Of a stretch of DNA of 64,000 bases, positions 21,196-23,840 are shown piece after piece. A model generated the notes under the pieces. That model was not told the DNA's origin and ran no database searches. It saw nothing but the letters and a program-made list of their open reading frames with translations. Each line of letters begins with the position of its first letter. Position 1 is the first letter of the stretch. The stretch spans positions 682,001-746,000 of the forward strand of contig NZ_WNIJ01000001.1 in NCBI RefSeq assembly GCF_009725755.1, written 5' to 3'. The position numbers and the translations under genes were made by a program. The DNA comes from Bombella sp. ESL0385. Lineage in GTDB: Bacteria; Pseudomonadota; Alphaproteobacteria; Acetobacterales; Acetobacteraceae.

Positions 21196-21262
21196 ATGGT
21201 GAGACTGGTATGTGGCAGCTTTAAGGGAGTTTTTTTAGTACCTTAGAAGGCTCTGTATTACA

Positions 21263-22102
21263 TCAATAATTCTTCACAATAACCTCGTTTGGCTCTTTTC
21301 CTCTGCTTCCCCCTTTGCAGTTAATGGCTCTTTTGGCGGATACTGTTTTGATATCAAAATCGCGATATAGCTCTCTAACAATCTCGGTATTAGAGTTAGA
21401 GAGCATGGCTTTTACCCCTTTGTGTGAAAGCTCTTTAAAGAGTGCGGCAAGGTCTTCTTGGTCTTGCAGAGTAAACCCCTGCTTTGTGTAGCTAGAAAAG
21501 TTAGCTGTTGGTGTCAGCGGCACATAAGGGGGGTCGAGATACACAAAATCCCCTTTTTGAGCGGTAGAACGCACTTTTTTATAATCATGGCGGCTAATGG
21601 ATATAGATTTTTCATTAAGATAGCCATGGATAGCGGTTAAGTTTGTCGCATCTAGGATGTTTGGATTTTTATATTTGCCGAATGGGGTATTGAATTGGCC
21701 CTTTTTATTCTCTCGATACAGGCCGTTAAAGCATGTTTTATTCAAGAATATAAACCGGCTGGCTTGCTCTACCTTGGAGAGCGTAGTCGGGTCTTGGGCG
21801 CGTATGGCGTAAAAATAATCAGGGGTGTTCTGATGTCTGCTGAGAGCCTGCAATAGGCGGGGCAATTCATCTCTGATGATCGTATAAGCGTTGATGAGGT
21901 GAGAGTTAATATCCGAGATGGCCGCCTTTTGGGGCAGTTGGCTAAAAAAGAGTGCGCCACCGCCTAAAAAAGGTTCATAATATGTATCAAATCTTTCAGG
22001 CAGTTCCTCTTGCAGGATAGCAACTAATTGACGTTTACCGCCAGCCCATTTCACAAATGGTTTGGGGTGGATAAAATTGCTTTTGTCTCTTGAGAGAGGC
22101 AT
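21263..22102 (-). CDS. Dam/DpnII-type DNA adenine-N6 methyltransferase (predicted GATC)
   Basis: Transfers a methyl group from S-adenosylmethionine to adenine N6 in duplex DNA. Alpha-class motif order is visible in 279 residues: motif X PFVKWAGGK (15-23), motif I YEPFLGGGALF (42-52), a target-recognition segment with CFNGLYRENKKGQFNTPFG, and motif IV DPPY (190-193) followed by TANFSSY. These match Dam and M.DpnII, so GATC is the likely target. It is divergent from a MutH/Sau3AI-like endonuclease gene with 208 bases between starts, and together they read as a restriction-modification pair. An acquired, not a CcrM-type, methyltransferase. Confidence 0.9.
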   Translation of the reverse strand: MPLSRDKSNFIHPKPFVKWAGGKRQLVAILQEELPERFDTYYEPFLGGGALFFSQLPQKAAISDINSHLINAYTIIRDELPRLLQALSRHQNTPDYFYAIRAQDPTTLSKVEQASRFIFLNKTCFNGLYRENKKGQFNTPFGKYKNPNILDATNLTAIHGYLNEKSISISRHDYKKVRSTAQKGDFVYLDPPYVPLTPTANFSSYTKQGFTLQDQEDLAALFKELSHKGVKAMLSNSNTEIVRELYRDFDIKTVSAKRAINCKGGSRGKEPNEVIVKNY

Positions 22103-22149
22103 TTTGCTGATTTTCTTCCAGACAAAGGAACAAAGGAATACCTTGTTTA

Positions 22150-22161
22150 ATGATATATCAT
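22150..22161. promoter_or_regulatory. 12-bp palindrome in the methyltransferase leader
   Basis: ATGATATATCAT is a perfect palindrome, lying about 20 bases downstream of the methyltransferase -10 and 48 bases before its ATG. A second small inverted repeat (CATAC at 22159, GTATG at 22172) overlaps it. The position suits an operator for autoregulation, but no C-protein gene is present. Confidence 0.35.
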
Positions 22162-22179
22162 ACCTATTTATGTATGGCT

Positions 22180-22228
22180 ATTATAGAAAATATCTTAGAT
22201 TGACATAAGCTTTAATACATTCTCTATC
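22180..22228. promoter_or_regulatory. Divergent, overlapping promoters of the methyltransferase/endonuclease pair
   Basis: On the minus strand TATAAT (22185-22180) is a consensus -10 for the methyltransferase, with only a poor -35 upstream. On the plus strand TTGACA (22200-22205) is a consensus -35 for the endonuclease, with a weak -10 (TCTATC, 22223-22228). The -35 of one lies in the upstream region of the other, so polymerase binding at the two may compete. One has a good -10 and the other a good -35. Confidence 0.4.
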
Positions 22229-22310
22229 TTAGGACAGGGCGTTTTTTAACGGTCTATCTTTATAGCGTTATGGCTTCAGCTTACTAAAAAACATGAGTAG
22301 GGGATATAAG

Positions 22311-23030
22311 ATGACAAAAAAGACCATATCAAGGGATGAGGCTCTACATAATTTACGAAAATATATAGGCCATGATTTAGGGCTTTATGCTGAGAAATAT
22401 AACATTACTATAGAAAAAGATGGAAAGATTAATAAAGGGTGGAAAGGGCAGGTTTTAGAACAGTTAGCGGGTTTGGATAATAACAATATTAGGGCACCAG
22501 ACGGAGGAGATTTTGAGTTAAAATCTGTAGTGCATACAAGAAAAGGCGATAAATGGGACCCCAAGGAAACAATGGCCATTACGATGATAGATGAAGCGTC
22601 CTTAGCGAAAGAGGATGATTTTTATAAAACTCATCTATGGAGCAAGTTAGAAAAATTAATATGCTGCGCTACCTCTTTTGAGGGGAGCGGGGCGAAGACA
22701 AGTAAATTATTAAGCGTAACCTCTTTTGAGTTTTTAGATGGTGATGAGACAATAAAGGAGATAAAGAAAGACTATGAGGATATTAGAGAGAAATCTATAA
22801 AAGATGGTTTCCATAGTTTAAGTGGAAAAGATGGAACATGGATTCAACCAAGAACAAAAGGTCAAGGAGGGGTTAATCCAAGAACTGGGCAGCCTAACCC
22901 TAAGACCCGTGCATTTTATGCGCGCAAAGATTTAGTGAGGAAACTCTTCGAGCCTAATGCCAAGGCTAAGTCTTCCTTACATAAGGTCTCTGGCGCGCAA
23001 ATAGGTATCCCACTAACAGATGACGAATAA
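22311..23030 (+). CDS. MutH/Sau3AI-family restriction endonuclease (predicted GATC)
   Basis: Predicted Mg-dependent nuclease of the MutH/Sau3AI fold, 239 residues (E. coli MutH has 229). Aligned by eye to MutH, NKGWKGQVLE (Glu50) matches the helix with MutH Glu56; PDGGDFELKS (Asp64/Asp67, Glu69, Lys71) is the PD-(D/E)XK core; THLWSKLEK (Lys112) matches the region of MutH Lys116; and IQPRTKG with RAFYARKDLVRKLF matches the C-terminal recognition part. ATG 22311 has AGGGGA six bases upstream. One 60-base line of this gene (22321-22380) has 35% G+C against 58% in a line of accA, consistent with transfer. MvaI/BcnI-type enzymes share this fold and are the main alternative. Confidence 0.8.
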   Translation: MTKKTISRDEALHNLRKYIGHDLGLYAEKYNITIEKDGKINKGWKGQVLEQLAGLDNNNIRAPDGGDFELKSVVHTRKGDKWDPKETMAITMIDEASLAKEDDFYKTHLWSKLEKLICCATSFEGSGAKTSKLLSVTSFEFLDGDETIKEIKKDYEDIREKSIKDGFHSLSGKDGTWIQPRTKGQGGVNPRTGQPNPKTRAFYARKDLVRKLFEPNAKAKSSLHKVSGAQIGIPLTDDE

Positions 23031-23075
23031 ACGCACTGACTCCCCGTTGGGGGAAGGGGCCGCTTAAAGGCGTGT

Positions 23076-23840
23076 TTAGTCTGTATGACGGGGAGGGTCG
23101 CCTTCTAGCGGTGTGAAGCCGAGGCCTTGCAATAAGTGCTTAAGGGCGGCCCCTGCATGGGAGACGGCTTGGTCATCATACCCTTTAGCTACAAGAGCCA
23201 CGCCGCGTTTTGGGCCGGCATTAAAGGGGTAAGAGCCAATATCTAGCATAGGGTAGTCATGTTGCAGGGCAGTGAGGGGCTCAGCAAGGTCGCCTTCATA
23301 CACATCATAGCTATACCAGCTTACGCTGGATAAAGGGGAGCCTGCCTCTAATTGCGGGATGAGCCATGAGACCATGGCTTGAAAAATACGCGGCACCCCC
23401 GCCATGACATGGACATTGCCTAAAGAGAAACCCGGCGCGGTGGAGACGCTGTTTTTAATAGGCGTTGCCCCTTGGGGGAGCCACGCCATACGCTGGCGAG
23501 CTTTATTAAAGCTCCCAGCAGGGAAAAGGGCTTCAAGCTGGCGGAAGCTTTCCTCATGGCATATCAGCGGGACGTTAAACGCCTCAGCAATGCACGCGGC
23601 GGTAATATCATCATGGGTGGGGCCAATGCCCCCGCTTGTAAAGAGGAGGTCGAACCGGGCGCGACATTCATTAACCGTTGTGATGATATGAGCAGGAATA
23701 TCGGGGATGACACGGACCTCTACCAACCGAATCCCTTGATGATTGAGGGCTTGAGCAAGGACGCGCACATTTGCATCTTGTGTGCGGCCGGAGAGAATCT
23801 CATTACCAATGACAAGAAAACACGCTGTACGGGGAGCCAT
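23076..23840 (-). CDS. CinA N-terminal (MoaB/Mog-type) domain protein
   Basis: Competence/damage-inducible CinA-like protein consisting only of the molybdopterin-binding-fold domain plus a short C-terminal part (254 residues); the C-terminal nicotinamide-nucleotide amidase domain of full CinA is absent. The start ACFLVIGNEILSGRTQDAN and the loop TSGGIGPTHDDIT are the family signatures. Homologues of this type have been linked to pyridine-nucleotide repair (ADP-ribose pyrophosphatase activity), but the role here is not settled. It lies at the right end of the restriction-modification island, converging on the endonuclease. Confidence 0.85.
   Translation of the reverse strand: MAPRTACFLVIGNEILSGRTQDANVRVLAQALNHQGIRLVEVRVIPDIPAHIITTVNECRARFDLLFTSGGIGPTHDDITAACIAEAFNVPLICHEESFRQLEALFPAGSFNKARQRMAWLPQGATPIKNSVSTAPGFSLGNVHVMAGVPRIFQAMVSWLIPQLEAGSPLSSVSWYSYDVYEGDLAEPLTALQHDYPMLDIGSYPFNAGPKRGVALVAKGYDDQAVSHAGAALKHLLQGLGFTPLEGDPPRHTD

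Follow-up and report, generated by a model that had tools for sequence, protein, structure and literature searches.

Genes and organisation of the island

Between accA and a cinA-like gene, the window (the whole stretch of 64,000 nucleotides analysed here) contains a 1.89-kb low-GC island with two divergent genes, one encoding a DNA methyltransferase and the other an endonuclease (Table 1). The GC content of the island parts ranged from 0.31 to 0.44, compared with 0.53 for the window, and no mobility gene was found within it, in agreement with the earlier note, which had described an A+T-rich two-gene island at this place and had seen no mobility genes in it. The nuclease reading frame opens at position 22293, which gives a form of 245 aa; residues are numbered on this form below.

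Table 1. Features of the island, in positions of the window
Feature	Position	Strand	Basis
Whole island	21199..23088		Flanked by the accA terminator and the 3' end of the cinA-like gene; sister alignments stop and resume at its edges
Dam/DpnM-type DNA N6-adenine methyltransferase, 279 aa, predicted to recognise GATC	21263..22102	-	Profile and structure matches
Stretch between the divergent genes	22103..22292 (to 22310 with the inner ATG as start)		GC 0.31; sequence
Endonuclease with a single domain of MutH/Sau3AI fold, 239 aa counted from the likely start	22311..23030	+	Profiles, fold match, alignment

Given the divergent layout, both promoters presumably lie in the stretch between the two genes. 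A promoter scan of this region returned 3 hits, against 4.6 expected by chance, and there was no GATC site in it. Among the listed repeat pairs, none lay wholly between the two genes and none joined the two island edges. The two proteins matched the PADLOC models for a type II methyltransferase (E=9.8e-100) and a type II restriction enzyme (E=3.9e-10), and their genes adjoin each other, as those of a type II system do.

The two sister genomes, G273 and G296, show approximately 94% nucleotide identity to the window. Their alignments run up to position 21198 and begin again at 23089, with approximately 6 bp in between, which represents a clean empty site. The comparison of the accA-cinA junction that the earlier note had proposed revealed that all 10 of the other genus genomes lack the island there, leaving it in 1 of 11. 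The simplest reading is that the island was gained in this lineage, although it may instead have been lost elsewhere.

The methyltransferase and its prophage copy

The methyltransferase scored 298.8 bits against TIGR00571, well over the curated cut-off of 114.85, which makes it a member of the Dam/DpnM family, and 217.4 bits against PF02086. Nearly its whole length aligned with DpnM (2dpm, E=3e-75) and Dam (2ore, E=3e-41), both of which are GATC enzymes. The enzyme was not found in any of the 10 other genus genomes, all of which were searched; Dam-type methyltransferase matches were present in 23 of 150 family genomes. A family genome from another genus (G061, locus L005) encodes a methyltransferase 45% identical to that of the island.

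A second copy of the methyltransferase gene was found in a prophage of the same genome (G000:C1:972461-973264; L012 8459-9262), where the neighbouring genes encode a terminase large subunit, a head-tail adaptor, an O-like replication initiation protein, SSB, RusA and a CI-like repressor. No nuclease lay beside the gene at that locus. The DNA of the two copies is 97.1% identical over 802 bp without gaps; 14 of the 23 nucleotide differences fall in synonymous codons and 9 in nonsynonymous codons. The likeness ends with the shared coding frame: matches fall to 17 of 60 bases past the stop and to 11 of 60 before codon 14. The analysis of this copy suggests that the prophage probably carries a protecting gene against the restriction system of its host, that is, an anti-restriction gene. 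Passages of a study of a lactococcal phage (PMC4190342) describe a Dam, M.Phi93DAM, that blocks DpnII and whose gene is without a nuclease. The prophage copy is likewise without one, but it differs from M.Phi93DAM in sharing 97% identity with the cassette gene elsewhere in its host chromosome, so that the protecting gene of the cassette would be common to chromosome and phage.

A single-domain nuclease of the MutH/Sau3AI fold

Pfam searches of the nuclease at E<=0.01 matched MutH and MvaI_BcnI only. The MutH match passed the gathering score (25.4 bits against 23), whereas the MvaI/BcnI match lay under the Pfam cut-off and was far weaker than the match to MutH/Sau3AI, which sets the protein apart from MvaI/BcnI enzymes. 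The scores remained far below the cut-offs of the two MutH equivalog models, NF003458 (37.3 bits against 243) and TIGR02248 (20.2 against 229.9), and of the Sau3AI family model NF040973 (60 against 300). The protein covered positions 4-216 of the 475 in NF040973; with 245 aa and one domain, it falls short of the two-domain length of Sau3AI, whose full-size frames have 463-523 aa. Identity to MutH and Sau3AI was 17-18% over the best fold matches. The earlier note's assignment to a MutH/Sau3AI type thus holds for the fold and the residues but not for strict membership, as indicated by the equivalog cut-offs and by the separate tree group described below.

The putative active site consists of E56, D70, E75 and K77, with roles assigned by alignment to the MutH-like rows; the spacing is D-x4-E-x-K, in contrast to D-x6-E-x-K in MutH. 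In the alignment, K48, R187 and Y209 match K48, R184 and Y212 of MutH. According to passages of two published studies, Tyr212 is important for the determination of methylation status by MutH (PMC3848065), and a MutH base editor no longer edits when it carries K48A, R184A or Y212S (PMC10940147). At the place of Y209, a tyrosine was present in all 14 of the single-domain rows of the third tree group that reach this point, whereas the full-size Sau3AI rows possessed serine (4 of 5) or alanine (1 of 5). Because the nuclease has the MutH-type K48, R187 and Y209, the last at a place where the Sau3AI rows have Ser or Ala, it is predicted to be an m6A-sensitive GATC nuclease, which is in line with its Dam partner. 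Sau3AI itself is described, in a passage of PMC5608340, as insensitive to m6A and blocked by cytosine methylation; the island nuclease differs in both its tyrosine and its adenine methyltransferase partner. The tyrosine alone does not fix the partner, since the copy in genome G694 possesses it yet lies beside C5 enzymes.

MutH is described as a monomeric nicking enzyme (in a passage of PMC3848065), and Sau3AI possesses a second domain; double-strand cutting by a single-domain nuclease is therefore not assured. If both strands are cut, this might be accomplished by a dimer or through two successive nicks.

Relatives, linked methyltransferases and phylogeny

Of 299 family genomes searched, this one alone yielded the nuclease; the search took in 7 of the other 10 genus genomes (G299, G300 and G301 lay outside it). 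Among 72,556 plasmid records there was no match at E<=1e-5, and two scans of viral contigs yielded no confirmed relative. The 50,697 phage records contained a single relative, in a 595-kb uncultured phage, in which a Dam gene (L003 4969-5973) precedes, by 24 bp, a nuclease with 49% identity to that of the island; this record holds three D12-type matches in total. A scan of genome contigs revealed 3 loci, one from Bacteroidetes and two from Bdellovibrionales. Profile searches of the corresponding phyla matched 7 of 395 genomes in the former (3 single-domain, one of them split, and 4 full-size Sau3AI) and 12 of 290 in the latter. In the phylum of the window, 52 of 398 genomes matched, the 51 others at 60.5 bits or less.

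Several of these nucleases are linked to methyltransferases of varied kinds. In the Bdellovibrionota genome G1164, Dam adjoins the nuclease, and a second, partial D12 match lies on the other side. In G1294, of the same phylum, the order is Dam, a CcrM-like N6 methyltransferase and the nuclease (L128 2-2142). DpnII systems have the order DpnM-DpnA-nuclease, and the G1294 locus resembles them with the nuclease swapped. The island shares with DpnII/MboI-type systems a methyltransferase of the DpnM type and the expected m6A protection of GATC, but its nuclease has the MutH fold and drew no DpnII/MboI-type match in Pfam at E<=0.01. In Bacteroidota, the G1085 locus consists of a DPPY-motif methyltransferase (CcrM-like by model), one small frame and the nuclease, and in G888 a like-looking DPPY-motif methyltransferase is one small frame away from a nuclease copy that is split in two frames. 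In G694, the nuclease is flanked on one side by a C5 methyltransferase, recognised by model, and on the other by a partial one, recognised by eye. The unusual pairing of a Dam with a MutH/Sau3AI-type nuclease, which the earlier note had pointed out, is real and recurs in the phage and in two Bdellovibrionota genomes. Among the matches listed from the open-access literature, none described a MutH-like restriction nuclease linked to a Dam.

A phylogenetic tree was built from 47 of the 48 aligned proteins, L015 being omitted because a contig end truncates it. The split copies L112/L117/L132 (G888) and L129/L130 (G1157), a truncated copy of the window gene (L016) and repeated loci stayed outside the alignment. 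The tree, read as unrooted, contains three supported groups. One comprises 5 full-size Sau3AI rows (100/99), without the window protein; another comprises 28 MutH-like rows (99/99), labelled by size and similarity and drawn from the best 30 of 52 matched loci. The third group, of 14 rows, includes the window protein (97/91). Within it, 8 standalone Bdellovibrionota rows cluster together (95/97), the Dam-linked G1164 row adjoins them (97/91), and the five other linked rows form a group with support of 88/95. Several branches, including that of the window protein, are long. The aligned sequences therefore place the nuclease in a third lineage, separate from both Sau3AI and MutH.

At the place of D70, asparagine is present in the phage (L003 5998-6633), G1085 (L131 4909-5514) and G1294 (L128 1492-2142). 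All three of these relatives are methyltransferase-linked, and the other rows of the third group possess aspartate.

These substitutions and the split G888 copy would fit a decayed system, in which the nuclease is inactive and the methyltransferase works alone as an orphan Dam. The same reading would accommodate promoter hits that do not exceed chance and the retention of the methyltransferase alone in the prophage. However, the frame of the island nuclease is intact and has kept E56, D70, E75, K77, K48, R187 and Y209, and the linkage to a methyltransferase recurs across phyla, so we regard decay as very unlikely. The active-site loop of the predicted model (residues 64-74) has a pLDDT below 50, which counts against the favoured reading, a working type II system.

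Scarcity of GATC

In 144 kb sampled from this genome, GATC occurred 163 times, compared with 612 expected from trinucleotides; this ratio of 0.27 was the lowest among the 256 tetramers, and all 16 NGATCN contexts were depleted (0.05-0.60). An 18-kb stretch of the prophage showed a ratio of 0.38. The sisters G273 and G296 were also GATC-poor (0.46 and 0.40), and searches for Dam/D12 and for this nuclease found neither in them. The ratio was 0.79-0.90 in four other genus genomes and 1.01-1.10 in three other family genomes. Outside RGATCY, it was approximately 0.33 in this genome, 0.47 in the pooled sisters and 1.07 in the four others; part of the GATC depletion is RGATCY avoidance of the kind seen in other members of the genus.

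In 61.8 kb aligned among the three genomes, 34 GATC sites were present in both sisters only and 20 in this genome only (two-sided binomial p=0.076), and like skews were obtained in the same alignment for GTAC (32 to 17) and ACGT (29 to 17). Because the sisters, in which neither gene was found, are depleted as well, and because GTAC and ACGT share the skew, the depletion appears to be mostly inherited. Pressure on GATC in this small clade goes back further, and the island fits it but did not cause most of the depletion. GATC scarcity was therefore rejected as proof that the island is active.

The sisters are depleted (L032-L039, L098-L105) although neither a Dam nor a MutH-like nuclease was found in them, and a lost or unrecognised GATC system there is likely. 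A published study notes, in passages of its text, that avoidance goes with how long a system lasts and that lost systems leave traces behind (PMC4687349). In G032, G299, G243 and G211 (L040-L055), CGCG (0.18-0.30) and pooled RGATCY (0.14-0.33) are scarce while GATC overall is not avoided, pointing to other restriction systems, past or present.

Both the RGATCY avoidance in the genus (0.14-0.33), which implies that such specificities exist nearby, and the mere 17-18% identity of the nuclease to MutH and Sau3AI would suit a type II system that recognises a different site, such as a longer one containing GATC. We consider this very unlikely, since depletion extends to every NGATCN context in this genome and the methyltransferase aligns nearly full length with two GATC enzymes.

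Among the relatives, the Bacteroidota genomes G1085 and G888 had GATC ratios of 0.18 and 0.35, with GGCC and CTAG rarer still. G1164 and G1294, which encode Dam-linked nucleases, were not GATC-poor (1.04 and 0.95 on 30 and 10 kb), and the phage stretch was mildly so (0.63 on 12.6 kb).

Restriction or repair

The earlier note had left a choice between a plain type II system and a methylation-sensitive nickase resembling the Dam-MutH pair. In a repair pair of the latter kind, the methyltransferase would mark the parental strand and a nuclease recruited by MutL would nick the new strand. The size, the fold and the contact residues of the nuclease are those of MutH, and its standalone relatives in Bdellovibrionota resemble such a repair nuclease. 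However, the host MutL contains DQHAAHERLTHE and CPHGRP, which we take to be the endonuclease motifs of MutH-independent repair; a role of the nuclease in mismatch repair in this host was rejected on these motifs. The linkage of the two genes and the host MutL also distinguish the island from the MutH arrangement. Furthermore, the island is present at the junction in only one of the 11 genus genomes, GATC, which would have to serve as the signal, occurs at 0.27 of its expected frequency, and the window nuclease falls outside the standalone group in the tree. A repair pair thus has very little probability, and the type II half of the earlier choice is favoured over the nickase.

As judged from its sequence, the cassette is a real and intact GATC-type system made up of a Dam-type methyltransferase and a single-domain MutH-like nuclease, and it is very probably a type II restriction-modification system for GATC that was acquired horizontally. 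This reading is favoured because of the homology and fold of the proteins, the recurrent methyltransferase linkage, the conserved residues, the GATC-poor genome, the endonuclease motifs of MutL, the empty sister site and the prophage methyltransferase. The GATC scarcity of the sisters, the lack of it in G1164 and G1294, its mildness in the phage and the low confidence in the active-site loop count against it. In such a system, the methyltransferase would methylate the adenine of GATC in host DNA, and the nuclease would cut GATC in incoming unmethylated DNA; N6-methyladenine would block the nuclease, sensed by the tyrosine equivalent to Tyr212 of MutH. From the comparisons above, we infer GATC specificity for both enzymes, the block by m6A, double-strand cutting and a role in phage defence.

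If this is true, a tyrosine-bearing MutH-like restriction nuclease with a Dam represents a middle form between Sau3AI and MutH, and the origin of MutH from a restriction enzyme becomes testable by biochemistry. Judging from the closest relatives, nucleases of this kind may have moved between roles in DNA defence and in DNA repair.

A possible second Dam/MutH repair system in Bdellovibrionota

The nuclease was apparently standalone in 10 of the 12 Bdellovibrionota genomes (L014, L015, L120-L124, L126, L127 and G1157, with its copy divided between contigs). A scan for DPPY-like and PCQ sites revealed no methyltransferase motif in the flanks, which in these draft genomes covered approximately 1.5 kb on each side, 6 kb at L014 and less at contig ends. 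In all 10 genomes, MutL was without intact DQHAx2Ex4E and CPHGRP motifs, although a degenerate CPxGxP was kept in 6; the MutL of G695 was read from its C-terminal piece. Both motifs were present in G1294, which has a restriction-type locus, and in 3 of 4 nuclease-free controls (G1092, G1094, G1095 and G1097, the first rows of the match list and not a random choice), whereas the MutL of the fourth control, G1097, had neither. No full MutL was found in G1164. The difference in the presence of both motifs, between 0 of 10 standalone genomes and 4 of 5 others, gave a Fisher p of 0.0037, for genomes that are related and thus not independent.

Six of the 10 standalone genomes yielded a D12-type methyltransferase; the drafts of the remaining four may be incomplete, or the absence may be true and would then argue against a repair role. 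GATC ratios in the 10 genomes were 0.71-1.11 in samples of 8-31 kb, with three at 0.71-0.75, indicating that GATC is avoided less strongly there than in this genome.

On these sequence comparisons, the standalone nuclease, Dam and motif-less MutL could possibly constitute a second Dam/MutH repair system. A broader scenario, which we put forward tentatively, is that the third lineage consists of single-domain m6A-sensitive GATC nucleases that spread as restriction systems together with varied methyltransferases, and that one Bdellovibrionota branch independently turned into a repair nuclease, with the endonuclease site of MutL lost to match. If so, methyl-directed repair arose a second time outside gammaproteobacteria, and relatives from before and after the change from restriction to repair have been preserved. 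A passage in a review holds that methyl-directed repair is restricted to gammaproteobacteria, a view that standalone relatives accompanied by a motif-poor MutL would challenge; among the matches listed from the open-access literature, there was no report of a Bdellovibrionota MutH. Both of the two standalone proteins tested, of 10, scored better on MutH than on Sau3AI models, while 5 of 6 linked proteins scored better on Sau3AI than on MutH models.
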